A stretch of 64,000 nucleotides of DNA from Tyto alba. Lineage: Eukaryota; Chordata; Aves; Strigiformes; Tytonidae. Below are positions 10,274 through 64,000 of this stretch, piece by piece. The position numbers were made by a program, and so were the translations under genes. Position 1 is the first letter of the stretch. Each line of letters begins with the position of its first letter. Where the stretch lies: NCBI RefSeq assembly GCF_018691265.1, contig NW_024881324.1, positions 961,230 to 1,025,229 of the forward strand. Reading direction: 5' to 3'. The notes beneath the pieces are model-generated. The model ran no database searches. It was not told the origin of the DNA and saw only the letters and a list, made by a program, of their open reading frames with translations.

Positions 10274-10806
10274 TGTCACGGTCGACGCGGACAGAATTAC
10301 GGTCGAGACGGATAGATTCTTCGTTACAGCAAGTTAACAGCAAAGCCACAAACAAAAAGCTTTTATTTTCTCCTCCTTTGTTCCTTTATACTTTTTCTAC
10401 AGGGTGTACAGATTTTCCAGACCACCTACCGACCCGCCCCTTCACGTATGTGTTCATACATCGCATGTCCATGGTAATGAACCCTGGCCCTTCCCAGGGT
10501 GGAGAAGTTAATATGCATAAGCTCATCATGCAAGCGTAATAATATAGAAAGTTCAAAAGTTCAGGCTCCCAAGCTTTCTAGTATCTCTATCCACCTAAAA
10601 CTAGTTCCAAGTACGGGGTTATCAGTTCTTCTGATGTGTCTCTTTTCTTACTGGTTCAGAGTTGTTATCCTCTCTTACTGCGGTCGATAAGCTTGCTCAT
10701 CTTGCAGCTCCTCTTGTTCTTGTTTGCTCTCTCGGGGGTAGTCTGGAATCCTTTCAAGGTCGAAGCCGTTCCTCCCCAGGGCCTCAGTCCAGCTGAGGTC
10801 CCCACA
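10274..10806 (-). repeat. ERV-A 3' LTR
   Basis: The left LTR, with TG...CA ends. On the minus strand there is a TATAAA (plus-strand complement at 10385-10390) and about 20 nt later an AATAAA (complement at 10362-10367), marking the U3/R and polyadenylation region. It differs from its partner at 14405-14939 by scattered, mostly transition-type substitutions and two small indels. Confidence 0.93.
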
Positions 10807-10819
10807 ATTCCCACTTTTT
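10807..10819 (-). promoter_or_regulatory. ERV-A polypurine tract
   Basis: On the minus strand this reads AAAAAGTGGGAAT directly before the U3 start TGTGGGG. Its position and composition are those of a plus-strand-priming polypurine tract, slightly degraded by a T. Confidence 0.8.
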
Positions 10820-11528
10820 GTATTTGTGCTATGAAAGTCGCCCATGTTGCCTTCTGCAGGGCCCTTTGCATCAGGTACATTAAACATGGCAACATCAGTA
10901 ACACAACTACACTTACAATCAATACCAACATTCCAGTCTTGATCAGTGCTAGAATCCAACCAAACAATCCCCAACCATGAAAGAAGTTATTTAACCAATC
11001 TCACACATCAGCAGTCTGAAGCTTCTTCACTCCTTCCCTAAACATTTGAATACTCTCATGAATTGATTCTGAGTGATCTGACAAATTCATACAACACATT
11101 CCTTCAAAGTCTTCACATCCATGTCCTTGGGCTAGCAACAAAAATCAATTGCGGCTCTATCTTGCAAAGAAGCATATCTAATGCTATCTACCTTGCAATG
11201 TAGCACGTCTAAGCTAACAACATCTGTTAATAATCCACTTAATACTATTATCAGCACATGGCTGTGGGCTAACACAGGGGCCCACATTCACAGGGTTGGG
11301 CCAGGTGTCTACAGGCAGCCCAACCAGGCAAGTGAAAAAAGGGTTTCCAGGGAAGGCAGAAGAAAGGTGCATTGTTTTTTGTTGTGTTATGTTTGCCAGC
11401 GTTACCCATACATTCGCTTTGGGTTGTGGCACCATCCATGCTTCATTATCTTGTGCAGCAGTCCACAACAGGCCAAACACAACTCGCAGGAATCCATTGA
11501 GGTCTGCTATCTGTGGAAACAAAAGCAT
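10820..11528 (-). pseudogene. env: ERV-A env remnant
   Basis: The 5' part (about 11214-11528) encodes the N-terminal surface-subunit segment with residues NVWVTLANIT and a following GNPF.TCLVG motif. This corresponds to the NIWVTIANKT and GNPFRTCLIG segments of the intact ERV-B Env. Downstream, the transmembrane subunit resumes abruptly near 11160 with the immunosuppressive-like helix region and the C-x6-CC cysteines, in shifted frames. A hydrophobic membrane anchor follows at about 10850-10967, and reading continues through the polypurine tract into U3. Most of the surface subunit, including any cleavage site, is deleted. Stops and frameshifts make it non-functional. Confidence 0.85.
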
Positions 11529-11539
11529 ACCCTCTTCCC

Positions 11540-12552
11540 CATGTCAACAGTTCACATGGAGAGGACCATAGACCTGTAATCAGATCCCTTATCTGCACCT
11601 TGACCCCTGGTTTTACGCCAGAGGTAGATGTCAGGGATCCAAAATGCCGCAGCATTGGTGGCTGTGGTGAGTCATCTGTTACCTGCAAAAAATTTAACAC
11701 ATATGTGGCTTTATTAAGGCGTGATTCTGGACATTCTCAACCCATTCCCCCTTTTTGTTTTTGAAGCATATGCTTCAGGGTGCCATGGGCACACTCCACA
11801 ATAGCTTGTCCTGTGCGAGAATGAGGAATACCAGTCACATGCTGAATTCCCCAAAGAGATAGAAACGACGCCACTTTTCTAGACTTATATGCTGGGCCGT
11901 TATCAGTCTTAATTTGTTGTGGCACACCTGTGATTGAAAGCGTGCGTTGCCAATGTCGAACAACTTCCTTCACTGATTCCTGAGTGTGCGCTGTAGCATA
12001 GCAGAAGAAAAAGTGTCAATTGAGACATGCACATATTTCATGCGTCCAAAATCTGACACGTGAGTAACATCAGTCTGCCAAACTTGTTAGGCTTGTAACC
12101 CACATGGATTGGTTCCATAATACTGAGGAACATGCTGTCCTTGACAGTCTGGGCACACTGCAACAATGGCCCAGGCCTCCGTGTTGGATAGACGAAACTC
12201 AATGCTCGATGTCCTTGATGAAAAAAATCGATGGGACTCAAGGCATTGGCCCCATTGCTACGCCTGCTACAGCAGCATTGGCTCGAGCATTACCTTCAGT
12301 GATAAAACCTGGCAGCTTCATGTGACTTCTAACATGCAAAACATAATATGGATGCTGTCGCTCTTGAATCATAAGCCATAATAATTTTAGTACCCCAAAT
12401 AATTTCTCATTTGTCACATGACCTAGCACAGACTTATCCAATCGTTGGACCAAACCAGAGACGTATGCAGAGTCAGTGACAATATTTAATGGCTCATCAA
12501 ACTTTTGAAAAACCATCACCATGGCTCGGAGTTCCCATTGCTTGTAGGGACT
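11540..12552 (-). pseudogene. pol: ERV-A pol remnant: RNase H and integrase
   Basis: In order on the minus strand: an RNase H domain (about 12240-12552) with the TDSAYV motif containing a catalytic Asp; the integrase zinc-binding region (about 12040-12240) with a His-x3-His pair and degraded cysteines; the integrase catalytic core (about 11737-12060) with KTDNGPAY and the SRTGQAIVE segment carrying the final acidic residue; and the integrase C-terminal domain (about 11560-11680), ending RPQWIPASCVWP. The frames are broken several times. RT, protease and dUTPase are absent because the RNase H frame is fused directly to gag at about 12550. The integrase end overlaps the env start, with no spacer. 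Confidence 0.87.
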
Positions 12553-14247
12553 GCGACAGCCCTCCTTTTTTGTTCTTATCGGGACACTCGGCTTTTCGGT
12601 GGCCAGCCTTGTCACAATTAAAACATTTCTGGTTCTCCAACCAGAGAGCCGACATGGCTGTGGCAAGTTCTGACATTTTACTGACCCTGCTTTTGCACAG
12701 GCAGTGACCATTTCCTCTACAGTTGGATCGCCTGGCATAGCTTCAATAATTTTCCGGCAGTCCTCATTTACATTATCACGAGCTAGTTGCTTTACCAGCA
12801 TCTGTCGCAAGGTGGGGTCATAGACTTGTTTTTCAACAGATGCCATTATTTTTTCTACAAACGGTAGAAACGGCTCTTTAGGCTCCTGCCTTATGATAGT
12901 ATATCGAGGTTTCGGCTCTGAAAGTTCCGCAGTCCTCATAATAGCCTCTATACCTATCGCTTTCACTTGTTCCAACACAAGCGGATGTCAGCGGGCTTGT
13001 GCCCGGGCATCCCTATGCTGCCCTAATCCCATGAGTGTTTCCATTCCCACCCCAAATCTGGGCTCCTGCTGATCTAACTGCCAGTTTTTGCTGTCTGTAC
13101 ATCAGTGCACTGCCTCCAAACATTGTGAAATACTGCGTTTTGCACTGGCTGAAATATAATTTGCACAAGTTGATTTATGTTGAAAGGGACCAACTCATCA
13201 GTGGCTACCAAACGTAATAATTGCATGACTGCAGGAGAATTTGGACCGTGCTGGGTAGCAGCCTTCTGCAAATCTTATATTGCTTTCCAGGCAAATGCAA
13301 CATACTCATCGGCCTGGCCCTGTGGCGTGGCACGAATTACTGGAAACGCCAAGGGCCCAGTGGACAACTTTTTGGATCGTAATGCGAGTGTCTCACAAGC
13401 CAGGTGTCTGGATAGCCTTGGATAAGTCCCTCCCAATTCCCCTCCTCCATGGCTCGCTTCTTCACCTCCCTCCAAAAACTAACAGGGTCTCTGGGGAGGA
13501 CTGTTAGCTCAGTGGGAGGTAATGTCCAGGGCCGAGGAGGCCCAGGGCATTCCACTCTCTCTCTTAAGGGTGTTTTAAAATCAGTTGGTGGGGTTCCTCA
13601 CCATCCCCCCAGTCATCTCCCGGTCCTTCAGGTGATGGGGGGGCACCCCTCGGAAACCTCCAAGTCTGTACCCACTTCCCCCACTGCCCCTTCCATCCCC
13701 TGTGGTAGTGGAGGTGCGGAAGATTCTATCTGAGCCTGTTTCACTAGAGGAGGATACAGTACATTACCCGTATCCCGAGGACATAGATATTGCTGAGGCT
13801 TTATAGTCTCATCGGGCCACATATATTTCCGTGGTTACGCAGTGCCAGTCAATTTTGAGGGGGTGTCTTTTTTATCAGGAGAGGGGTTTGACGACCCCAC
13901 GGCTCCCGCCGCTTTGTCCAATCCATCCTTTGTGTCACTGTTGTTATTCATTTTTTCGAGCTCATCTTGATTTTGCTTAAGGGCTTTTAAAGTGTCTAAT
14001 AAGAATCACCATGTAGTTAAATGTCCTAATGCTTTCTTGTCACTCCACATTGCGCAGTCTATTAACTTTTCTCCTGTTTGCTCCCATACTGTAATGCAGT
14101 TTCAGCGGATTCTGGCACTCCATTACGTTTACCTCACACCAGAATCCTCTGTAACATTAATTCGTCCATTTTCAGTCCCAGATTTTTCAATATTGCTTCC
14201 CATATGTTCAGCACACTAGCCTCCTCTTTTGTGAGTGTTGTGACCAT
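12553..14247 (-). pseudogene. gag: ERV-A gag remnant
   Basis: A likely start codon is at 14247, followed by a matrix-like region with several stops. A proline-rich region and capsid follow (about 13075-13560, residues such as WTLPPTELTVLPRDPVSFWRE and VKLVATDELVPFN-like stretches). The capsid C-terminal major homology region is at about 12680-12980 (EPKEPFLPFVEKIMASVEKQ, then DPTLRQMLVKQLARDNVNEDCRKI). A single nucleocapsid knuckle of C-x2-C-x4-H-x4-C type, now out of frame, is at about 12560-12620. Just after it the sequence jumps to RNase H, so gag is 3'-truncated by an internal deletion. Confidence 0.83.
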
Positions 14248-14384
14248 GTTCCCAGTGATTCACCTGGTATGTTAGTGTGTCAAGTATTGGTCTGCGGACT
14301 TAGCAGCTCCACCGCCGCTCTCAGCTTCACTGACCTCTGTCTCCACTGCGCATCCAGCAGCCAGTCTTTTCTCAGTGTTCCGTT

Positions 14385-14402
14385 CGTCGGTCAGGGTCAC
14401 CA
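14385..14402 (-). promoter_or_regulatory. ERV-A primer-binding site
   Basis: Two nucleotides inside the right LTR, the minus strand begins TGGTGACCCTGAC. The first 13 bases match a tRNA-Trp-type primer site except for one C-to-T change; the remainder has drifted. The position identifies the right LTR as the 5' LTR. Confidence 0.72.
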
Positions 14403-14404
14403 AT

Positions 14405-14939
14405 TGTCACGGTCAACGCAGACAGAATTACGGTCGAGATGGACAGATTCTTCGTTACAGCAAGTTAACAGCAAAGCCACAAACAAAAAGCTTTTATTTT
14501 CTCCTCCTTTGTTCCTTTATACTTTTTCTACAGGGTGTACAGATTTTCCAGACTGCCTACCGACCCGCCCCTTCACGTATGTGTTCATACATCGCATGTC
14601 CATGGTAATGAACCCTGGCCCTTCCCAGGGCGGAGAAGTTAATATGCATAAGCTCATCGAAGCAAGCGTAATAATATAGAAAGTTCAAAAGTTCAGGCTC
14701 CTAAGCTTTCTAGTATCCCTATCCTCCTAAAACTAGTTCCAAGTACGGGGTTATCAGTTCTTCCGACAGTGTCTCTTTTCTTACTGGTTCAGAGTTGTTA
14801 TCCTCTCTTACTGCGGTCGATAAGCTTGCTCATCTTGCAGCTCCTCCTGTTCTTGTTTGCTCTCTCGGGGGTAGTTTGGAATCCTTGCAAGGCCGAAGTT
14901 GTTCTTTCCCAGGGCCTCAGTCCAGCTGAGGTCCCCACA
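14405..14939 (-). repeat. ERV-A 5' LTR
   Basis: The right LTR, 535 bp, TG...CA, partner of 10274-10806. On the minus strand the TATA box (complement at 14516-14521) and AATAAA (complement at 14493-14498) are retained. The duplicated host hexamer GAACAA follows at 14940-14945. Confidence 0.93.
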
Positions 14940-24734: not shown

Positions 24735-24740
24735 TTTATT
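24735..24740 (-). promoter_or_regulatory. Displaced LSM5 polyadenylation signal (AATAAA)
   Basis: On the minus strand this is CTGAATAAAAGG followed by a U/GU-rich stretch (CTTTTCTTTTGTTAG, then TTGTGTTCTG), the arrangement of a vertebrate poly(A) site. The first half of the hexamer lies within the ERV-B target duplication (24738-24743). Before insertion it would have stood about 285 nt after the LSM5 stop codon. The copy of the duplication on the LSM5 side (30939-30944) is followed by LTR, so AATAAA is not recreated there. Confidence 0.72.
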
Positions 24741-24743
24741 CAG

Positions 24744-25105
24744 TGTCGCGGCCGAAGACGGGGAAGCAAGACACATCAATATGATGAGTAAATCAGCTTC
24801 GGTTTATTCCATGATATGTTCTCTTTTTATAATGTCCTAATGTTCCGTACATGCAATCACGCGCCTTGTCAAGCAAGCTCATTGGCTTATCACTACTGTT
24901 CACGCGACAAACACAAGCATAACATACATTCTGATTGGATAACAAGTTTTGCATACTTTGCAATACTTCAGCATTTTTGCGGTAAGCACATCCCTGTTCA
25001 ACATCCTGTTTTTCACAACTTTAAGCAACTTCCCTGTTTCAAGGACAGTATGTCCTTCATATCTTCTGATACACATTTCTTACTGTTAATACTCCGGCCC
25101 CAGCA
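24744..25105 (-). repeat. ERV-B 3' LTR
   Basis: 362 bp with TG...CA ends. On the minus strand U3 holds two CCAAT boxes (complements near 24890 and 24939), a TATAAAAAG box (complement at 24823-24831) and an AATAAA (complement at 24803-24808). The last 49 nt of the env coding frame lie inside U3. Confidence 0.96.
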
Positions 25106-26406
25106 TCTCCCCCTCTTTTTTCAAAAACTGCATGGGCGATGTCTGACAGCCGCTGAGTTAAGCAACTGATTAAGCATGGCCCAAACAGGAGGCAGAACCC
25201 TATGAGCAATAAGGGTCCCAAACAGGTTTTGATCAGATCCCTTAGCCAACCTCCCAATCCCAATGAGGCTAACCATCCATCTAGGCCATCAGCTTCCTTC
25301 AAAGCATGCAATCCATCTTTCAACTGTTGCAGTTTCCTATGTAAAGACTCTCCAGGTCCTGTCAAATTCATACAACACATCCCTTCAAACTCTTCACATC
25401 CGTGACCATGGGCTAATAATAAAAAGTCAATTGCGGCTCTATTCTGCAGAACTGCGTGGTTTACACTTTTTACATCTTTAGTTAGTTCGTCCAAAATACT
25501 GGATGTTATGTTTATTTCATCACAAGCCCAGCAACCTAGCTGTTTGGCTAAGGTTAGTGCTTTTGCTGCCGCCAGGCCGGGCAGGAGTGTAGAAGCGGCC
25601 ACTCGTCCAAATTCTCCCCAAAAATGAGGCTCTCCTACCCCATCACATGAGAGTTCATGCAGGGCTCTCCTTTGTCTACTGCTATTATTCCTGGCCCACC
25701 TCATCAGCATTGATATGTTAGGATGAAACAATGCCAATTGACCTAAATAACAAGGACCTCCTGTTGGCCGCCTCGGAATACCGTTCCATGCTCTGTCTCC
25801 ACAGATCAAAAAGATTCCTTCAGGTAATCTACGAGGCTCGGTTATGTTACTACCATTGCATTGCGTATAGACTAACGAGTTGATCTCATTAGTATCAAGG
25901 CTCGAATCTAAAGTTGCCCATAGCTTCCTGTTTGCATTCAACTCTCCCCGAGTTAGTGGTTCAAACGATAACCATCCACCGTCGGATCCATTAGTGGTAG
26001 CATTCATACAGCCAAATAGGTCCAACTCTTCCGGGTCCGACTGAAGGGAGGTATTAAGGGCATGAATCAGTCTGCACTGCACTTCCCCATCTTGCTGCTG
26101 GGCAGTAAACCCTGACGTATGGCTACTGGTGTTGTTAATGCTTTCATACTTAAGGTTGGTTAGGTTTACCAGTCCTGAAAAAGCCGAAGCCGTCCAAGTA
26201 GGTACTCCTATAAGGCAGGTGCGGAATGGATTACCCACACCTCCCAAAGCAAGGCACATTGACGATTGATTTGTTTTGTTAGCAATGGTTACCCATATGT
26301 TGTCTCGCGGGCTGATGGAGGTAATCCCGTAACTTGCCTGACAGAGAACCAAAATTCCTATGCACATGCCCATTATCCTACCAATAGACTCCCCCATCCT
26401 TGTCAT
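25057..26406 (-). CDS. env: Retroviral envelope glycoprotein, intact (ERV-B)
   Basis: An uninterrupted 449-codon frame with an ATG start. A hydrophobic signal peptide covers about residues 12-27. The surface subunit runs to a furin-type site RQRR (244-247). The transmembrane subunit has an internal fusion-peptide-like stretch (about 268-285), a heptad/immunosuppressive-like helix region (about 318-335), the C-x6-CC motif (Cys337, Cys344, Cys345) that covalently links subunits in gamma/alpha-type Envs, and a membrane anchor (about 396-416). About a dozen N-glycosylation sequons are visible. The surface subunit, about 220 residues after signal removal, is short for the type. The C-terminal tail is encoded across the polypurine tract and 16 codons into U3. 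It overlaps the preceding cysteine-rich frame by 29 nt. Intactness reflects youth or selection; the sequence alone cannot tell. Confidence 0.93.
   Translation of the reverse strand: MTRMGESIGRIMGMCIGILVLCQASYGITSISPRDNIWVTIANKTNQSSMCLALGGVGNPFRTCLIGVPTWTASAFSGLVNLTNLKYESINNTSSHTSGFTAQQQDGEVQCRLIHALNTSLQSDPEELDLFGCMNATTNGSDGGWLSFEPLTRGELNANRKLWATLDSSLDTNEINSLVYTQCNGSNITEPRRLPEGIFLICGDRAWNGIPRRPTGGPCYLGQLALFHPNISMLMRWARNNSSRQRRALHELSCDGVGEPHFWGEFGRVAASTLLPGLAAAKALTLAKQLGCWACDEINITSSILDELTKDVKSVNHAVLQNRAAIDFLLLAHGHGCEEFEGMCCMNLTGPGESLHRKLQQLKDGLHALKEADGLDGWLASLGLGGWLRDLIKTCLGPLLLIGFCLLFGPCLISCLTQRLSDIAHAVFEKRGGDAGAGVLTVRNVYQKI
25106..25121 (-). promoter_or_regulatory. ERV-B polypurine tract
   Basis: On the minus strand AAAAAAGAGGGGGAGA directly precedes the U3 start TGCTGGGG. 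It is a perfect 16-nt purine run that primes plus-strand DNA synthesis. It also encodes part of the Env cytoplasmic tail. Confidence 0.92.
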
Positions 26407-26986
26407 GACGCTTACACTGCTTCTGATATCTAGTACCCAACACCTGTGTCCTTTGTGCTATTTCTACAACCGTTACCAACTTTTGTAACCTAAAGGCCGT
26501 GTGTGCGAGTATAGCTTCTTCCTCGCTCTCAAACAGCGCCCTTAGCTCGTGCTGAGAAGCACCCTCCTCATTAAGCCATACAGCAAGCGCCTGGTACAGA
26601 TTAATAATTGAAGCACACCTGCAGTCTATACAACCTCGCACTGCAGCATGCTGTCGTTCATGACATATACGACCGCAGCCTCCACACCTTATAGTTATAA
26701 GTATTAAATTCCTACATCTACATCTACAATGAGTTAGCGGAAACACTTTTGCAGCAACATGTGTGCATAAAAGGCTATAAATAAGAGAAAAATCTAACTC
26801 CTCAGGATCAGAGTCACTTAATATGTTCCTTGGGAGATTTAACGCTTTGTCTATTTTCCTGCAGAGAGGTCCGAGTCTTTGGGAGCTCCTGAATCGCCTT
26901 CGCTCTTCGGTTTGCTCAGCCACGGTCGTACCCACTTGGCCGGAAGCCACCTTGGCACAGATGCCCCTTGAGGGAGGACTGTCCAC
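26378..26986 (-). CDS. Cys-rich open frame between pol and env (candidate accessory gene)
   Basis: 202 sense codons without a stop. The first displayed codon is GTG, and no ATG occurs anywhere in the frame, so it would need a non-AUG start, splicing, or a -1 shift from pol (it is in the -1 frame relative to pol, overlapping it by 136 nt). It overlaps env by 29 nt at the other end; about 444 nt are unique. Visible parts: a basic/polar N-terminus (residues 28-50), an acidic patch SDSDPEELD (57-65), a cluster CRCRC (87-91), two CxxC pairs (101-104 and 119-122) separated by 14 residues with a His at 109, then a helical acidic segment (135-175) and a basic end. This suggests a small zinc-binding protein, but I recognise no family. 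ERV-A has no counterpart: there the integrase end directly overlaps env. A plausible splice acceptor (CCTCTCTGCAG|G) lies at 26859-26860. Whether it is expressed is unknown. Confidence 0.5.
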
Positions 26987-27453
26987 TCATATCGTTGGGC
27001 TGGTCTTGCGTTGTTAACAACAGGAACCGTGAATGCAAACTTTTCAGTATCTTCCGGATGCAGGGGAATTGAAAAGAAACAGTCCTTCAAATCAATAATT
27101 AACAGTTGCCAGTGTTGGGGTAACACTGAGGGGGAAGGTAGGCCTGGTTGGAGTGCTCCCATGGGCTGCATGACCGCATTCACAGCGCGCAAATCATGCA
27201 GTAACCGCCACTTTCCAGATTTCTTTTTAATAACAAAGATTGGAGTGTTCCAGCAGCTCACTGATGGTTTTATATGTCCCAATCGGAGCTGTTCCTCCAC
27301 AAGTTCCTGCAAGGGCTGAAGTTTTTCCTCGGGGAGCGGCCATTGGGCTACCCACACTGGGTTATGAGAAGTCCACTGGATCTTCAGGAGGGGCAGGCCT
27401 TGCTCCCCAATGGCCGCTGTCAAAAAGGTGTGTCTCCTAAGGTAATGCCCCAC
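26851..27453 (-). pseudogene. pol: ERV-B pol, RT N-terminus fused to integrase C-terminus
   Basis: A 200-codon frame overlapping the protease frame by 34 nt, in the -1 frame, as expected for a second ribosomal shift. Residues about 25-163 are RT fingers and palm: the [16 protein letters not shown] segment, DLRAVNAVM, the motif A Asp in [12 protein letters not shown] (Asp121), and LPQG (160-163). At about 26964 the sequence changes to [14 protein letters not shown], which corresponds to the integrase C-terminal end (compare ERV-A, RPQWIPASCVWP). The YxDD active site, RNase H, and the integrase zinc and catalytic domains are all missing. The fusion is in frame. No polymerase or integrase activity is possible. 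Confidence 0.88.
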
Positions 27454-28253
27454 TGGCTCATTATGTCTCTGCCCAAAATCCAGAGGTTCGTATACATCAC
27501 ATAGGGCTTCACTGTCCCCATATGTCCCTCCTTGTTATCCATGAGTGTGCACCACTGCGCACTTTGACAGGTTGTCGCTTCTCCACCAATCCCGGCTATT
27601 GCTGACCTCGATGTTATCAGGGGCCACGTCTTCGGCCAATACATCATGGGGATGATAGTGATATCTGACCCAGTGTCCAACATGAATTGTGGCGAGTTGC
27701 CATTGGGTAACTTTAGCTCCTGTGGTGTCGCCTCAGCCTGTGACACCCTTACTGTCCTCATTGGCCTGTCTCGTGAGATAACCATTGAAAAAAGGGACAA
27801 TACTTTATTGTCAGTGATGTTGGTACTGCCAAATCCCCCTGTTCCTCTTTCCTTAGGCAGGGCCCGGGGTACTTGGGGAATGAACAGGATTAATTGTGCA
27901 ACTCGGCTCCCCTTTGGTACTGTCATGGACGGTTGCCATGCCTTTAGCATCACTTTAATAGTTCCAGTATAATCAGCATCAATTAAGCCAGGCAAAACGA
28001 ACAGTCCTTGTCGTGTAGTGGATGATCGCCCAATCAGTAAAGCGGCTAGACCCCCACCCAGCGGGCCTGAAGTTGTTGTTTCTGCTAGGTGCACATCCGT
28101 GGTATCAATTGTTATTGTGTTTGCCAGGGCCAAATCAACTCCTGCGCTTCCTCTAGTGGCAGCGGGTAGTTCGTGGAGGCAGCCATGCTGCGCAGAGGCT
28201 GTGGGCCTGAGAATTTGTTCATCGCGCTCAGGCCGCGGCTGCTGTAGTTTCCC
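27420..28253 (-). CDS. pro: dUTPase-protease (Pro frame, ERV-B)
   Basis: The frame is open from the GGGAAAC slippery site (28247-28253) to 27420 and is read by -1 shift from gag. Numbering from 28133: a dUTPase-like domain at about 5-105 with the motifs [19 protein letters not shown] and GTGGFGST (the last two matching trimeric dUTPase motifs 4 and 5), then an aspartic protease at about 125-237 with the active site DTGS (153-156), a Gly-rich flap near GIGGEA and the C-terminal GRDIMSQWG motif. A dUTPase N-terminal to protease in the same frame is a betaretrovirus hallmark. The frame has no stop or shift, so a functional protease and dUTPase are possible, although they could only be made as a Gag-Pro product, and gag is broken upstream. 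Confidence 0.92.
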
Positions 28254-30420
28254 TGGTCAAGGGGGGTACCATCCTTTTTAAATCGTGATCGGCACTCCTG
28301 TGCCTTATGTCCATATTTCTGGCATCGCTTGCATTCACCTTCAAATCCTGATGGCTTATGGGGCTGCTGCCATCGCTGTTCCGGACATTGCTTCTTAAAG
28401 TGCCCTTGTTGTCCGCATAGGTAGCAGGCAGTAGTTTTTGGCCCTCGATCTCCTTTTCCTTGCAGATTTTGGCGTAGGGCTACAGCAAGAGCGGATGCGT
28501 GGATGCGTGCTTTCGCCTTTTCTTCTTCCCAAGGAGCTCGAGCACACGCCTCTACCATCTGAATGAGAGTAGCCGAGGGGGCTAAGGTGGCCAAGAGGCG
28601 TTTGCAAGCATTATTGGCGTTTTGTGTAACCACCTCCTTCACCATGACATCTTTGAGATCCTCTGGCACATTTGGGGCGGAGTCCACAGCTGCCTTGACT
28701 TTGTCTACAAAAGACAAAAATGATTCTGTGTCTGCTTGAGTGATCTTCATATACGGCGGATTGATTTTGCCAATTTGCGGCAGGGCCATGAAGGCTTCCA
28801 GGGCGCATGCTTTTGATTGGGCCAACACACGAGGCGAAAGTGCCGCCTGCCGTTGAGGGTCTCTATACACCCCGGTTCCTAAAAGCTGAGCTTGTGTGGC
28901 AACACGAAGCGGATCTCCAGCTGCACGTTTTCCAGTTGTTTTTCCTCCACCCTCTCCTGCCATTTTGCCAGGAACAACGTAAAGGTAGTTGGTCCCAATA
29001 TCATTTCAAACAGAAGGCGAATATCCGTGGGTATCATATCTGCATATTTTACAAACGCCATGACCTGCTTCTTTACAACAGGGTTATCTAGGCCATAAGC
29101 CATGACAGACTGCTGCAGTTTGTTAATCTGGTTCCATTCAAAGGGCCTCCACTCTGGCCCATTAACGGTTGTAACCACCGGTGCTGATACCAATGGTGTA
29201 AAGGTAAAGTCCCCTGACAGTTGGGCATTGGTAACCACTCCATGCCATCGTTTTGACAAGTCAAAGGAGGGGTCTCGTGGTGGCTCCTTGGCTGGGGCTT
29301 TTGAGGATGATGGTTCTTCAGTTGGTACTGGCACCTTTCTAGGCGCAGCAGACCCATATTCCCTATCCCTCACATCTGGATCCAATCCCGCTTCGCGAAG
29401 CTGGGTTCTCCATTGTAAAATGTCTCGTCGCTCAGCTTGGGTCAGCCCTTGCCCTGACCCATAATTAAGCCTGAGATGATCACTGAGTTCCTCAATTCCC
29501 ATTTCCCCGTTTCCAGCATATTGGATCAGATTGAGTCTCTGGGCCTTAGACAACGTCTTAGGCAACTCCTTTGTGCCCGCCTTAGTTTCAGTCCCTTGAC
29601 CCCACTCCTTCAGCTGTGCCTCTATGTTCGATAGTCCATCCTTAATAGCGTCGGCCGCCCTCTGATACGCAAAGGCGCGAGTCTTTTTGTGTGCCCCGCC
29701 GTCCAATCTTTTCATCTCCTCTAACAGATTGGTCATAACATTCTTTTGCGCCTGCAAAAGTTTCTCTATCTTCGAGTCATCATTTGACAACTCTTCCTTG
29801 GTGCCAGCAACACCGTCATTATTTTTAGGCGGGGATGTGACCTGGGTGTCCATTGGCTCAGGCGGCTCAGGAGGGGCACTCGGTACAGCAGGGGACGCGG
29901 GCTCCCATGGTGGAATCAGGTCATCAAATGCTCCTCGAAACCCTACCGGGGCAGCGACTGGGGGCATGGGAGGTGCAAAGGGACCCCAGTCCAGATCAGC
30001 GTACCCTTTCTCCCGTTCTTCCTCTTGCATAGCTGCATCTAAGGTGCTTTCATCACCGGGAGATAGCTCGTCCTCTGGATCTTTTACAGCAGGGGATGTG
30101 ATTGCCGTTTGTAAGGCACGAGCTATATCTGCATCGGCATGAACCTGGTCCATCATCAACCGTACCTCCCGATAGGTTCTTGCCATAGCTTTTGCTCCTT
30201 TCATGCCCGTCTGCACACTCTCCCATAGTTCTGACCACACTGTTTTCCAGGCCCCTGGGTCAAAAATCTGATCGGTCTCAGTTAAATGACCGCACCGCCT
30301 GCACCAAAACAACAAGCCCACCAAATCGCTGCGGTCTATCTTATGACCCGTTGTGGACGCAATCTTCATGAGCCCGTCCACTGTGGCTCGCTCCAGGGCT
30401 GTCATAGCAGCATTCCCCAT
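28112..30420 (-). pseudogene. gag: ERV-B gag, broken by one frameshift
   Basis: ATG at 30420; the first residues MGNAAM give a myristoylation-type Gly2. The first frame runs 513 codons to 28879. It covers matrix-like sequence (1-110), an acidic and proline-rich segment (115-200; APPMPP, PPEPPEP), a charged helical, probably coiled-coil segment (208-275), an extra helical block (285-355), and the N-terminal part of capsid (about 385-493). The capsid C-terminus and nucleocapsid continue in the -1 frame to 28112. The break lies near an A5 tract (complement 28939-28943) and fits loss of a single base. Two intact zinc knuckles of C-x2-C-x4-H-x4-C type are at about 28315-28440. The stop at 28112 follows the GGGAAAC shift site by 45 codons. 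The total coding length, near 780 codons, is long for a Gag. Confidence 0.9.
28247..28253 (-). promoter_or_regulatory. gag-pro ribosomal slippery heptamer GGGAAAC
   Basis: In the gag frame the codons read ..G GGA AAC, the canonical X XXY YYZ heptamer. The -1 frame is open from here into dUTPase-protease without a stop. Gag continues to its own stop at 28112. The same heptamer is used by several betaretroviruses at gag-pro. Confidence 0.88.
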
Positions 30421-30445
30421 CCCGAACCAGACCTCGGTCTGCCTG

Positions 30446-30452
30446 ACTCACC
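30446..30452 (-). promoter_or_regulatory. ERV-B leader splice donor
   Basis: On the minus strand the leader reads GACTG|GTGAGT, a consensus 5' splice site, 26 nt before the gag start codon. It would donate to env or other subgenomic messages, so spliced messages would not carry the gag ATG. Confidence 0.65.
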
Positions 30453-30556
30453 AGTCAGCCGTAGCTACGCTGGTTTCAGTTTTCCGCAAGTTTTCGTCCG
30501 CCTCTCTCGGGCGCCGGGATGGCCGTCTCCTCTCTCGTCCGCGCTATAGCCTTTCC

Positions 30557-30574
30557 ATCACGTCGGGGTCACCA
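30557..30574 (-). promoter_or_regulatory. ERV-B primer-binding site (tRNA-Trp)
   Basis: Two nucleotides inside the 5' LTR, the minus strand reads TGGTGACCCCGACGTGAT. This is the 18-nt tRNA-Trp primer site characteristic of avian alpharetroviruses. Confidence 0.9.
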
Positions 30575-30576
30575 GA

Positions 30577-30938
30577 TGCCGCGGCCGAAGACGGGGAAGC
30601 AAGACACATCAATATGATGAGTAAATCAGCTTCAGTTTATTCCGTGATATGTTCTCTTTTTATAATGTCCTAATGTTCCGTACATGCAATCACGCGCCTT
30701 GTCAAGCAAGCTCATTGGCTTATCACTACTGTTCACGCGACAAACACAAGCATAACATACATTCTGATTGGATAACAAGTTTTGCATACTTTGCAATACT
30801 TCAGCATTTTTGCGGTAAGCACATCCCTGTTCAACATCCTGTTTTTCACAACTTTAAGCAACTTCCCTGTTTCAAGGACAGTATGTCCTTCATATCTTCT
30901 GATACACATTTCTTACTGTTAATACTCCGGCCCCAGCA
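30577..30938 (-). repeat. ERV-B 5' LTR
   Basis: 362 bp, matching 24744-25105 at all but three positions (by-eye count). The TATA box complement is at 30656-30664 and the AATAAA complement at 30636-30641, followed on the minus strand by a GT-rich stretch (TTGATGTGTCTTG). It lies about 280 nt downstream of the LSM5 stop codon in the same orientation, so it can supply a poly(A) site to LSM5. Confidence 0.96.
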
Positions 30939-31220
30939 ATTCAGAACAGATTAGCACATCTTTACAAGAAAGCCATGATTTCAACTTACAAAGTCAGTAT
31001 TATCATAAGTAATGCACCTTTCCTGAAGAGGAAATCCTTGTCTTTTATCAAATGTCAATTGCAAGCGTGTATAAACAAAACAAAACAAAACCAAAAACAA
31101 CCAACCACCAAACAACACACACCAAAACCCACCCATATCCCAAACCCTCTATTTAGATTATATATATACACATACAGATAAAAAAAGAAACACTTCTTCA
31201 TAGATGACAACTGCATCAAT
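30939..31220 (-). other. LSM5: LSM5 3' untranslated region, truncated by ERV-B
   Basis: The sequence between the LSM5 stop and the ERV-B 5' LTR. On the minus strand it holds a TG-rich stretch (31070-31140) but no AATAAA or ATTAAA; the best variant is a GATAAA near 31040. It ends with the target-duplication copy CTGAAT, immediately followed by LTR. The host 3' UTR therefore has no canonical signal of its own before the provirus. Confidence 0.75.
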
Positions 31221-34200
31221 TTATACTTCAGGTCCTTCTCCTCCAGGAACCAGCTATAAAAGAATAAGATAATTTTGTGTTAGTGCCATAGATTTGAGTT
31301 CTACAAATCCATTTGTGTCAGTTCTTGCATTACAAGATTATAGCAGATGAAGACTTCATCGCAGATGACAAATGTGGTTTTTAGATTCACTATTATCTTC
31401 CTCTCCCAACAGAGGAAGTCAGTTACTGCCAGAGAAGCACACGCAAAAAAAAAAAAGTCTCCAAAATATGGAGAATGTTTAACAAAACACAAAGGATATC
31501 CCAGATAACACACATTTTGGGTTTTGTCTTTGCTACTCACTTCAAGATGATTCTGTCTAGAAACACCTGAGCACATTTTTAAAAGGACAAAGAACACATT
31601 TCCTTTCATGAAGTACTTCTCCAATTGCTGATTCTTCCCCAGACTGCCACTATAGTGGGGAAGTTGGCTTCCTCTCTCCAACTTCTATTGCTAAGCACAG
31701 CCCAAAAACTAACAAAGAGCCTGAACCCTTCAACAGGCAGCAGGGAATAAGTCAGCATAGAATTTTCATGGGAAGAAAGTAAGGAACTGAAGAGGAAAAA
31801 ATACAAGAGAAAAAACATGAGTAAAGGAAAAAAAAAGAAGAGAATAACTATTCCTTTTACTCACAAATACTCTTTTTTAATATATTCCTTCTTAAGCATT
31901 TTAACCATTCATTTTCCTATATTCTTAATAAATAGCTGAGCACTTCTAAAGACAAAGAGCTTTGCTGCTTTTGGGACAGAAGTAGGAAAGTCTAAAGCAT
32001 AGGCTTCCTGATGTGGGAAGATGTGTCCCCAAAAGACAGAAGACCTAATACAGAAACATATCTATGTCTTGCTGAAAATTTGCACTCTAAGAATCGCAGG
32101 CTGATTCTTCAAGGGCAGCATACCACTAGTTTAACAGGATGGTTGTAATTTTACCTTGCGTAAGAAATCACAACATGCACTATCCTTTAAGGATGAAGAA
32201 CAATAACCACAGCAGAAAAAGGCTTTGAAATTAAGGCAAGATGACACTTGCTCAGACACACAGTAAAGAGGTGCAAGGTAGGTAAGACAGCAAAATAGAG
32301 ATTATTCCTCATTCACCTAGAGCCAATTTAGGCTCAAGTCAGTCATCATCTCCTCCCACAAAATTAGGAATGCCCTTATATAGGAAATCCAGTGTCCTGG
32401 GTTGAGTGAGTGGTGGGGTTTTTTGGTAGCAGAGGAGGGGGCTATAGGGGTGGCCCCTGTGAGAAGCTTCTCGAAGCTCCCCCAGCTCCAAGTCAGTTCC
32501 ACCTCTGCACCAAAACTGAGCCCATCAGCTGCGCCTCTGCGATAACGTATTTAAGAAGGGACGTGGTGAAGAGCAGTGGGACTGGTGAGGAGGAGCTGTG
32601 GCAGCTGCGTGAACACCAAGGTCAGTGGAGGAACGGAGGAAGAAAGGAGGGGGGAGGTGTGCCGGAGCAGAGACCCCCCTGTATCCTGTGGGGAGACGGC
32701 AGGGCGGCCCCCCCTGCCACCCATGAAGATCTACGGTGGAGCAGACACTGATTTATGGCCTGTGTTTTTTTGCCTGGTTGATCAAGGTGCTGTGCCCAAA
32801 GAAGGCCGGGGTCTTGGGGGAAAAGGCAGCCCCACTGCTGTAATTCAGTGCTGGGAGGATTGCAGCATGCAGGGGTGTCCCACGCCGGAGCAGCTCGGGA
32901 AGGGCTGCAGCCATGGGAGGGAATCCAGTCGGAGGAAGTTACTGACCCATGACGGAGCAGTGTGGGGAACGCTGCGGCCCATGGGAGGGACTCATGTTGG
33001 AGGAAGTTTGTGGAGGACTGTCTCCTGTGAGAGGGGGACCACGATGGAGCAGGGGGAAGAAGTTCCAGAAGCTCCCCCCACCAAAGATGGAGGAAGTGGC
33101 AGCACTGACTGTACCCCCCATTCCCTGCCCCTGCGCCACTGGGGGAGGAGGTAGAGATATCGGGAGCAGAGCTGAGCCTGGGAAGAAGGGAGGGGGGGGG
33201 GAAGGTGTTCTCAAGATGTGGCAATGCTTCTCACTGTCCTACTCTGTTATGTGTTGTTAGTGTCTGTAATAAACGTATGTTCTTTTTTTCTTCCCCTAAC
33301 GAGTCTGCCTTTTGCTCGTGCTCATAATGGGTGATTTTTTTTTCCCCCATCCCAGTCCTATCTCGAACCCCAAGCCTGGCTCATCTGTCCCTTCTTATTG
33401 CCAGAAGAGAAGAGAGAGAGAGTGGCTGCGTGGTGGTTGGCTGCCGACCAGGCTCAAACCACAACATCCAGATTTTATTGCCATCTACGCAGGCAAGAAA
33501 AAACTACTGTGGGTCTGCTTTTGTAGTATTTAGGAAATAGCAGAATTCAGCAATTGCAGAATTACAATATTTAAGTACGTTTTCAGTACTGATCTACATA
33601 CACCAGCAAGTGATAAAATGAAAATCATAGTGCTTCTAATTTGGTATAATCCAAGAGACCTCCAGATTTTTTTTCACAGCACATAAAGGCCCAGCTCCCT
33701 GGGCATCACGTGATTACATAGTTGCCAAATGATTTGACGAGCTTGTAAGTATCCAAACTGCTGCAAACACATTTATACAGAAAATAATGGATGAAATGTA
33801 GATGTATTTCACCCTACATACTCAAGCAGGCAAACACTCAGGAGTTAAAAGGCACTGTATGAACCAGCCTACAGAGCAGGCAAGAAAGCCAGCGATTCCC
33901 TTGCACACCTGAAGACCAGAGATGCATTCACCAGTATATAATGAAGGCCATGCTCTTCTCATGTTTCCTGTAACATCTACCAAGCAAGGCAATAAAATCA
34001 CTTTTCCAGCATCATTCATATACATATATACCCCAGAAGCTACTTGAAAGTAGCTTATGTAACAGAACTGTCTGGAGAGCTCAGCTTGAAGTGTCAAATT
34101 CAATCACTGACCAATTCAGAGGTACAGAAAATAAATCCATGCAGCCTCTTAACAATGATGACTTACCATTGTTATGTTATTTCCATTTAGCAAAATCTGG

Positions 34201-35741
34201 TCTAGCTTTGTGATTCTTCTTCCCTCAGGTGTAATCTCACTGAAGCAGCAACAGAAAAAGTAAGAACGAACACATAACCGGAGACAGTGATTCCAGTTTT
34301 GATTACAGACCTGACATAAATGTCTACATTAAGATGACATTTGTTGGAACTAACAAATAAATTAGCCACACTGCAGCGTAATCTTGAAAACTGATCACCT
34401 AGGTAGAGGAAGCTACCTGGCAACTAATAAGATCCATTGTACTTTTCTGCTCAGTACATACAGATTTGCCCTCTAAATCTTGGCAATTTCCTGAATACCA
34501 CCAATCCTCAAAATAGCTTTCAAATAGCAACATGGCATAACAAAATAATATATACTCATCCTTAAGTCTGCCAGATTTTTAAATCTTTGCCTAGACCTTA
34601 AGGAAACGTAAAAGCAAACAAACAAACTATTGTAAAGTTTGTTTACACAACCCATGCAAAATTAAGGCTACAAATTAGGAACCTGATTACAAGTCCAAAT
34701 CATGCAACAGCTACTCTATGGCATGGCTGTCCAGAATAAATCACCAAGTCCAAGATATAAAGTCCAAGATATAAACTATTCAGTTGGCAAGTATTCAAAA
34801 ATTATAAAATCACTTTGCTCATAGATCTTGTGCAGAATTTTTTCTTCAGGAAACCAAAGATTAAGTAGCAACAAGAGGTAGAAATAATACTTACAATTCT
34901 GTAACATCTTCTAACACCATATCTGAAAATCCAGTTTCAAGGAAAATAAGGCCCAGAGTTTTAAAATCAAAATAGTTAGAAGTTATTTTCATTTTATACT
35001 GAACTGTGATTTTTATCAGTTAAATAAAGATATCAGAACAATACAATTAATCCATACAAAAGGGTTCTATCCAGTGGACTCAAACCTCTCAAAAGCAATA
35101 AATGGAGCTGAAGAATAAAGTGGACAGCCTTAAACATTTCCATCGGAGGATACTGACAAAGTCATCAAACCCTAGGAGTGTTCCAACAATTTCCTTATCG
35201 CTCTTCATCACAATATGAATGCGTGAACCTATGCATTTGTCCACAAGTTCTGCCGATAAAATCAAACAAGGTTGAAAGGTACGAGACATTGTTTTGTAGA
35301 AGGTATATATATATTTTTATTTCAGAGCAAAATCCCTGACGTTCTGATGGCAAAAGAAAAACAAATAAAACAAATAATTGTCGCAGACACCGGTTAAAAA
35401 GAAAACAAAATAAAACAAAAAAACAACACACAAAAATAAGGGGAACAAAAAAAAGGATTCATTAGACAGACCGCGGTGGGGGTGGGGGTTGGGCTAGGAA
35501 GCCGCCGCGCGCCGCCGCTTAAACTTCCCGCCGCCCCGAGGGCCCGGCCGGCGGCCCGGCCACCCCTGCACCGCCCCCCCGGCCGTAGGACAGGAAGGGA
35601 AAGGGAAAGAAGAAGGGAAAGAAGGGAAAGAAGGGAAAAAAGAAGGGAAAGGCCGGGCCCGGGCCCGGCGCCCCCCGCGACGCGGCGGCCGTTACCGAGC
35701 GGCAGCAGCTGGGACGGGTTGGTGTTGACGTTAGCCGCCAT
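31221..35741 (-). CDS. LSM5: LSM5, U6 snRNA-associated Sm-like protein (5 coding exons)
   Basis: Coding exons on the minus strand: 35696-35741, 35154-35249, 34895-34922, 34167-34239 and 31221-31253. All introns begin GT (gtaacg, gtatcc, gtaagt, gtaagt) and end AG, and phases join without a shift to give 91 residues, the usual LSM5 length. The product starts MAANVNTNPSQLLPL, followed by the Sm fold: Sm1 in exon 2 with ELVDKCIGSRIHIVMKSD and GTLLGFDDFV, then exon 3 NMVLEDVTE, and Sm2 in exon 4 with LDQILLNGNNITM; exon 5 gives LVPGGEGPEV. LSM5 is a subunit of the LSM2-8 ring, which binds the U6 snRNA 3' end in the nucleus, and of LSM1-7, which acts in cytoplasmic mRNA decapping. It looks functional. 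Its last intron carries a solo LTR, and its 3' end is disturbed by ERV-B. Confidence 0.97.
32393..33466 (+). mobile_element. Solo LTR (1074 bp) in LSM5 intron 4
   Basis: TG...CA ends (TGTCCTGGGTTGAG to AAACCACAACA) and an exact 5-bp target duplication, TCCAG, at 32388-32392 and 33467-33471. In plus orientation there is a TATA-like GTATTTAAG at 32547-32555 and an AATAAA at 33268-33273 followed by a T-rich/GT-rich stretch. It is antisense to LSM5. A second copy with the same architecture is at 62988-64000. The 5-bp duplication suggests a class III (ERVL-type) element. The open frames across it on both strands are by-products of its GC-rich sequence. Confidence 0.9.
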
Positions 35742-62987: not shown

Positions 62988-64000
62988 TGTCCTGGGTTGA
63001 GTGAGTGGTGGAGTTTTTTGGTGGCAGGGGAGGGGGCTATCGGGGTGGCCCCCTGTGAGAAGCTTCTTGAAGCTCCCCCAGCTCCACGTCAGCTCCACTT
63101 CTGTTTGGGAAATTGAGCCAATCGGCTGTGCCTCTGCGATAACGTATTTAAGAAGGGACGTGGTGACGGGCAGTGGGACTGGTGAGGAGGAGTTGCTGCA
63201 GCTGCATGAACACCAAGGTCAGTGGAGGAACGGAGGAAGAAAGGAGGGGGGAGGTGTGCTGGAGCAGAGACCCTCCTGTATCCTGTGGGGAGACGGCAGG
63301 GCGGCCCCCCCCTGCCACCCATGAAGATCTACGGTGGAGCAGACATTGATTTACAGCCTGTTGTTCCTGCTCGGCTGATCAAGGTTCTGTGCCCGAAGAA
63401 GGCCGGGGTCTCATGGAAAAAGGTAGCCCCGCTGCTGTAATTCAGTGCTGGGAGGATTGCAGCATGTGGGGGAGTCCCACACCGGAGCAGCTCGGGAAGG
63501 GCTGCAGCCGTGGGAGGGAATCCAGTCGGAGGAAGTTGGTGACCCATGACGGAGCAGTGTGGGGAACGCTGCGGCCCATGGGAGGAATTCAAGTCAGAGG
63601 AAGTTTGTGGAGGACTGTCTCCTGTGAGAGGGGGACCACGACGGAGCAGGGGGTAACAAGTTTTGGACACTCCCCTCACCGAAGATGAAGGAAGTGGCAG
63701 CGCTGCCTGCACCCCCCATTCCCTGCCCCTGCGCCACTGGGGGAGGAGGTAGAGATATCGGGAGCAGAACTGAGCCCGGGAAGAAGGGAGGGGTGGGGGG
63801 AAGGTGTTCTCAAGATGTGGCAATGCTTCTCACTGTCCTGCTCTGTTATGTGTTGTTAGTGTCTGTAATAAATGTATGTTCTTTTTTTCTTCCCCTAACG
63901 AGTCTGCCTTTTGCTCATGATCATAAAAGGGGGATTTTCCCCCATCCCAGTCCTATCTTGAACCCCAAGCCTGGCTCTCTGTCCCTTCTCATTGCCGGAG
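62988..64000 (+). mobile_element. Second copy of the ERVL-type LTR, cut by the window end
   Basis: Starts TGTCCTGGGTTGAGTGAGTGGTGG, as the 32393 element does, and follows it along its length with scattered substitutions: TATA-like GTATTTAAG at 63144-63152, AATAAA at 63867-63872. The window ends roughly 60 nt before the expected 3' end. It could be another solo LTR or the 5' LTR of a longer element continuing beyond the window. Confidence 0.88.

Follow-up and report, generated by a model that had tools for sequence, protein, structure and literature searches.

A young provirus splits a probable polyadenylation signal of LSM5 and carries the next canonical signal in its 5' LTR

What happens to the messages of a conserved gene if a retrovirus integrates into the very hexamer that probably directed their polyadenylation? 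This question is raised by a locus of Tyto alba, where an endogenous provirus is located downstream of the coding sequence of LSM5. We have analysed the locus within a stretch of 64,000 nucleotides (the window), whose features of interest are compiled in Table 1.

LSM5, which is an RNA-processing gene with roles in splicing and mRNA decay and which is essential in yeast, is found here as a gene of five exons with GT-AG sites at all junctions, encoding a product of 91 residues in a frame that is open throughout. The number of exons, the uninterrupted frame and the intact splice sites rule out that the locus is a pseudogene. On the 3' side of the coding exons and in the same direction as the gene resides a provirus of 6195 bp (24744-30938, minus strand). 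Its LTRs, both of 362 bp, begin with TG and finish with CA and constitute the near-identical pair that characterizes a provirus, with three differences that are all transitions, the number already counted in the initial annotation. The flanking copies of the CTGAAT duplication are identical in all 6 bp, as expected for a target site. A third copy of the LTR was sought in the window at E 1e-3, where the only matches were the two LTRs themselves.

Table 1. Coordinates of LSM5 exons, hexamers and proviral features in the window.
Feature	Position	Strand	Remarks
LSM5 exon 1, coding part	35696-35741	minus	joins exons 2-5 in open frame
LSM5 exon 2	35154-35249	minus	
LSM5 exon 3	34895-34922	minus	
LSM5 exon 4	34167-34239	minus	
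LSM5 exon 5, coding part	31221-31253	minus	LVPGGEGPEV and stop (31223-31221)
TATAAA variant	31220-31225	minus	across stop codon; U-rich follower; 8 downstream motifs
AATAGA variant	31148-31153	minus	ahead of the tract with the highest GU content in the UTR; 12 motifs, 97.5% G+T, 2 UGUA
GATAAA variant	31044-31049	minus	poor downstream element; 1 downstream motif
Target-site duplication CTGAAT, LSM5 side	30939-30944	minus	at its end the AAT half of the split AATAAA
5' LTR	30577-30938	minus	362 bp, sense to LSM5
5' LTR AATAAA	30636-30641	minus	23 nt past start of TATAAA (30664); GT-rich follower 30610-30600
Primer-binding site	30557-30574	minus	2 nt internal to 5' LTR
gag	28112-30420	minus	two overlapping ORFs (28879-30420, 28112-28963); frame broken within p24 region
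dUTPase and protease ORF	27420-28133	minus	Pfam
Partial reverse transcriptase	26851-27453	minus	Pfam
env ORF	25057-26406	minus	449 aa; avian gp85 and TLV_coat TM; Pfam
3' LTR	24744-25105	minus	362 bp, 3 differences to 5' LTR
Target-site duplication CTGAAT, far side	24738-24743	minus	
Native AATAAA	24735-24740	minus	intact only here; then U/GU-rich 24730-24704

Pfam comparisons of the provirus identified Gag_p24, Gag_p24_C, zinc knuckles, dUTPase, RVP, a partial RT, gp85 and TLV_coat, and neither RNase H nor integrase was matched among its six minus-strand ORFs of at least 120 aa. A dUTPase next to the protease is a betaretroviral arrangement, which together with a betaretrovirus-like Gag p24 marks class II (ERVK) elements, and both features are present here. 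The env ORF in turn contains a gp85 domain (PF03708, E 2.6e-16), as found in env proteins of the alpharetrovirus type. Judged by this domain content, the provirus is a defective class II (ERVK-type) element carrying a gp85-type env. In database comparisons, 249 of the 7,990 scored candidates were hits of env, with the top score from Zonotrichia albicollis (55% identity), and the named matches among the best 120 of the 249 come mainly from birds or from the avian leukosis and Rous sarcoma viruses, besides a single one from a tortoise, which points to a bird as most likely host. The Gag piece has seven hits, including an ERVK-8 Gag-like entry from Lonchura striata and an uncharacterized one from Myiozetetes cayanensis, and no relative was found in viral_contigs. 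The primer-binding site, which we take to be of the tRNA-Trp type, resembles that of RSV and ALV, whereas the dUTPase beside the protease and the largely missing pol distinguish the element from these viruses. Further likenesses to RSV and ALV (PMC12789967, PMC9143442) are the gp85-type env and the position of the hexamer in U3, before R, which is our assignment for this LTR. That a class II backbone is combined with such an env agrees with the env exchange that PMC3758190 describes. Despite the frame-broken gag and the mostly missing pol, env has remained open over its 449 aa, and its ORF enters the 3' LTR by 49 nt.

If bird rates per site and year are assumed to be 1.9-3.3e-9, three differences over 362 LTR positions correspond to an age of 1.3-2.2 million years, with a Poisson range of 0.26-6.4. 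So few differences are compatible with an insertion that is possibly still polymorphic.

The relation of the insertion to 3'-end formation became apparent upon joining the host flanks by script after removal of the provirus and one copy of the duplication. On the minus strand, CTGAAT is then followed directly by AAAAGG (in the wider sequence TCTGTTCTGAATAAAAGGCTTTTCTTTTGTTAGTCGTTGTGTTCTG), and the junction contains an AATAAA that starts 279 nt and ends 285 nt past the LSM5 stop, a few hundred nucleotides being an ordinary length for a 3' UTR. The hexamer site in its predicted intact empty-site form is CTGAATAAAAGG. In the assembled allele, the AATAAA is missing on the LSM5 side because the LTR follows the duplication, so that CTGAAT runs into the element and only AAT is left, and the native copy is now found about 6.2 kb further on, beyond the provirus. 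The 282 nt separating the stop from the LTR contain neither AATAAA nor ATTAAA, and the first canonical sense hexamer past the stop is the one in the 5' LTR (30641-30636), at a distance of 579 nt. The initial annotation had described this arrangement correctly, from the AATAAA restored about 285 nt past the stop upon excision and the U/GU-rich stretch behind it, to the destruction of the hexamer on the LSM5 side with its survival 6.2 kb downstream, the lack of both canonical hexamers before the LTR and the sense signal within the 5' LTR with its GT-rich follower. When viral_contigs were searched with a 23-mer of the empty site and with a pattern of LSM5 exon 5, no match was obtained for either. 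A 17-base empty-site pattern had 88 matches in genome_contigs, which we take as chance: the best 80 of the 88 all have bacterial or archaeal titles, none of the 88 extends by the 21 bases on the 3' side, and the two bases on the 5' side are present in 10, compared to 5.5 expected (1 in 16). As a separate observation, the region of the native AATAAA (24735-24743) abuts the 3' LTR, where it could catch readthrough transcripts that have begun in the provirus or in this LTR.

By itself, a hexamer is weak evidence of a poly(A) site, and a first-order model of the LSM5 UTR yields one within 400 nt with a probability of 0.19. The surroundings of the ancestral site were compared to those of the 103 AATAAA on both strands of the whole window by counting U/GU-type 4-mers 10-50 nt downstream, by the G+T fraction, by the best 25-nt G+T run and by UGUA in the 80 nt upstream, measures that were picked after the site was seen and that do not amount to a trained predictor. 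The ancestral AATAAA is followed by nine downstream motifs, a number that is matched by one of the 103, namely the surviving copy at 24740 with its same downstream bases, and that is reached at 2.2% of 20,000 random minus-strand positions. Its G+T fraction of 0.65 is attained by six and its best run of 21 by two of the 103, with the surviving copy included in each. It is also preceded by at least two UGUA (8/103), and motif count and UGUA taken jointly are equalled by no AATAAA of the window (0/103). Such surroundings are suggestive of a genuine poly(A) signal, which before the insertion was probably the main one of LSM5.

Variant hexamers have remained in front of the provirus. The initial annotation had named GATAAA as an example of an upstream end, which we reject as leading candidate in light of its single downstream motif, and had overlooked both TATAAA (31225-31220) and AATAGA (31153-31148). 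The motif counts of AATAGA and TATAAA are reached at 0.9% and 3.3% of the random positions (n=20,000), respectively. With a best G+T run of 25/25, AATAGA equals or exceeds the ancestral AATAAA in all four context measures, the hexamer alone being weaker. These two sites underlie the main rival to an end in the LTR, which holds that LSM5 messages terminate at TATAAA or AATAGA in both alleles and that the insertion affected a distal site of minor importance, with little change. Such a reading gains from the 12 motifs and high G+T content of AATAGA and the 8 motifs of TATAAA, set beside the 9 of the ancestral site, and from the two upstream UGUA that AATAGA has in common with the latter. Variant hexamers are, however, far less used than AATAAA, and the reconstructed empty allele offers a canonical site in good context 212 nt past AATAGA. 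We regard an unchanged proximal end as unlikely, although it fares best among the alternatives.

An end in the LTR depends on the hexamer that the provirus has brought along. The arrangement found here, with a sense LTR that contains a canonical signal downstream of the LSM5 coding exons, is that of an LTR-supplied poly(A) site. The context of this signal is ordinary among the AATAAA of the window: it has four downstream motifs and one upstream UGUA and, itself included, its levels are reached by 21/103 for the G+T fraction, 31/103 for the best run, 18/103 for motifs, 33/103 for UGUA and 6/103 for motifs and UGUA jointly. Its TATA-AATAAA pattern had no match in viral_contigs. Deeper in the provirus there are five further sense AATAAA or ATTAAA, one of them in the 3' LTR. 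With ordinary spacing between TATA and transcription start, RNA synthesis would begin at or just after a hexamer located 23 nt past TATA. Because the TATAAA starts 23 nt before it, the LTR AATAAA is predicted to reside in U3, just ahead of the start of the viral RNA. A poly(A) signal in U3 is ascribed to RSV, AMV and MMTV among others in PMC12789967, according to which retroviruses with a signal in R must suppress the 5' copy. Among the ends that transposable elements (TEs) contribute in human cells, those from sense LTRs see the greatest use and rank below canonical annotated ends, and 25% of the ends derived from LTRs surpass a maximum utilization of 90% in one or more cell types (PMC3517506).

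In the mechanism that we propose, a sense provirus integrated in the middle of the AATAAA, with the 6-bp duplication leaving AAT on the gene side. Since its apparent position in U3 keeps the LTR hexamer off the 5' end of the viral RNA, no suppression would be needed there, and a polymerase arriving from LSM5 would meet a usable and unsuppressed signal. Most messages would be cleaved about 600 nt past the stop, near 30610-30625, yielding a 3' UTR that is half host UTR and half LTR, whereas a minority would end upstream at TATAAA or AATAGA, or read through. On the basis of the sequence features described above, we assign a probability of about 0.55 to the reading that the insertion split the likely main signal and that most LSM5 messages from the carrier allele end in the 5' LTR. 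The earlier proposal that LSM5 messages end in the LTR is in this way upheld with respect to the split hexamer and to the LTR signal as next canonical one, whereas the end in the LTR itself stays a prediction and has two variant signals persisting upstream.

The same LTR might also be leaky. In this case, polymerase would mostly pass the 5' LTR, and messages would end within the provirus, in its 3' LTR or 6.2 kb downstream at the native AATAAA; alternatively, splicing of exon 4 into the provirus would lead to loss of exon 5. LSM5 output from this allele would be diminished. An allele of low output should be disfavoured for a gene that is essential in yeast. The ordinary context of the LTR site and the native signal directly adjoining the 3' LTR favour leakage, as does the readthrough of about 15% given for ALV poly(A) sites in PMC9143442, but even at this level most ends would remain in the LTR, and the top rank of sense LTRs in use among TE-derived ends of human cells (PMC3517506) argues for termination. 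A predominantly leaky LTR appears to us quite improbable, clearly more so than an unchanged proximal end. We give least credence to a coincidental hit in AT-rich DNA, by which LSM5 would never have used the AATAAA and its 3'-end choice would be unaffected, as a chance hexamer is expected in 19% of 400-nt sequences but the joint motif and UGUA count is matched nowhere else in the window and the distance from the stop is ordinary for a 3' UTR.

If messages do end in the 5' LTR, the locus would plausibly be another case of a known phenomenon, in which LTRs supply host poly(A) sites. Work by Mager in 1999 reportedly found that endogenous retroviruses provide the primary poly(A) signal of human HHLA2 and HHLA3. 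What LSM5 would share with these genes is a poly(A) signal of retroviral origin; the LSM5 insertion differs in that it lies in the 3' UTR, where it has also split the native hexamer of a conserved gene, and in that use of its LTR is predicted. According to PMC3517506, where sense LTR elements act as strong host 3' ends, 5,747 human genes have ends in TE-derived sequences, which number more than 9,000; those ends were mapped by sequencing, whereas LSM5 is one young locus predicted from its sequence. In mouse ETn/ERV mutations, a sense ERV similarly halts host transcription at the LTR signal, but the ETn cases discussed in PMC1794541 are intronic, whereas the LSM5 insertion is located past the stop codon and keeps the protein intact. 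The titles among the matches listed from the open-licence literature, one of them on mouse LINE-1, do not name this LSM5 insertion.

An end in the LTR would turn the locus into a clean natural experiment, with one insertion removing a canonical signal and supplying a substitute 300 nt on while the protein is untouched. Such a locus would reveal how an essential gene copes with an exchanged 3' end and whether retroviral signals of the U3 type are efficient in host genes. A farther-reaching view, which we consider doubtful, is that LSM5 now owes the formation of its 3' ends to a young and possibly still segregating provirus, that output depends on the LTR since the duplication of the provirus has split the native hexamer, that LTR silencing or small RNAs matching the LTR could regulate LSM5, and that natural carriers and non-carriers would allow the replacement of a poly(A) signal to be tested between alleles. 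If the LTR is not used, the element would be no more than a common type of sense ERV within a 3' UTR, and if the species uses TATAAA or AATAGA, the insertion would alter little.

The window contains other repeats. A repeat of about 1 kb is present in two copies of 91% identity, one in LSM5 intron 4 (32393-33405) and one at the right edge of the window (62988-63999), and three ORFs scanned in these copies showed no Pfam match. A second ERV (10274-14939), which is more diverged and degraded, is bounded by LTR-like repeats (10274-10806 and 14405-14939) that are 95.7% identical. Over 90 bp, its segment 11078-11166 is 86.7% identical to 25359-25448 of the LSM5-side provirus. Within a single frame, its minus-strand ORF 12238-12978 matches both the C-terminal domain of Gag p24 and RNase H, which suggests an internal deletion.
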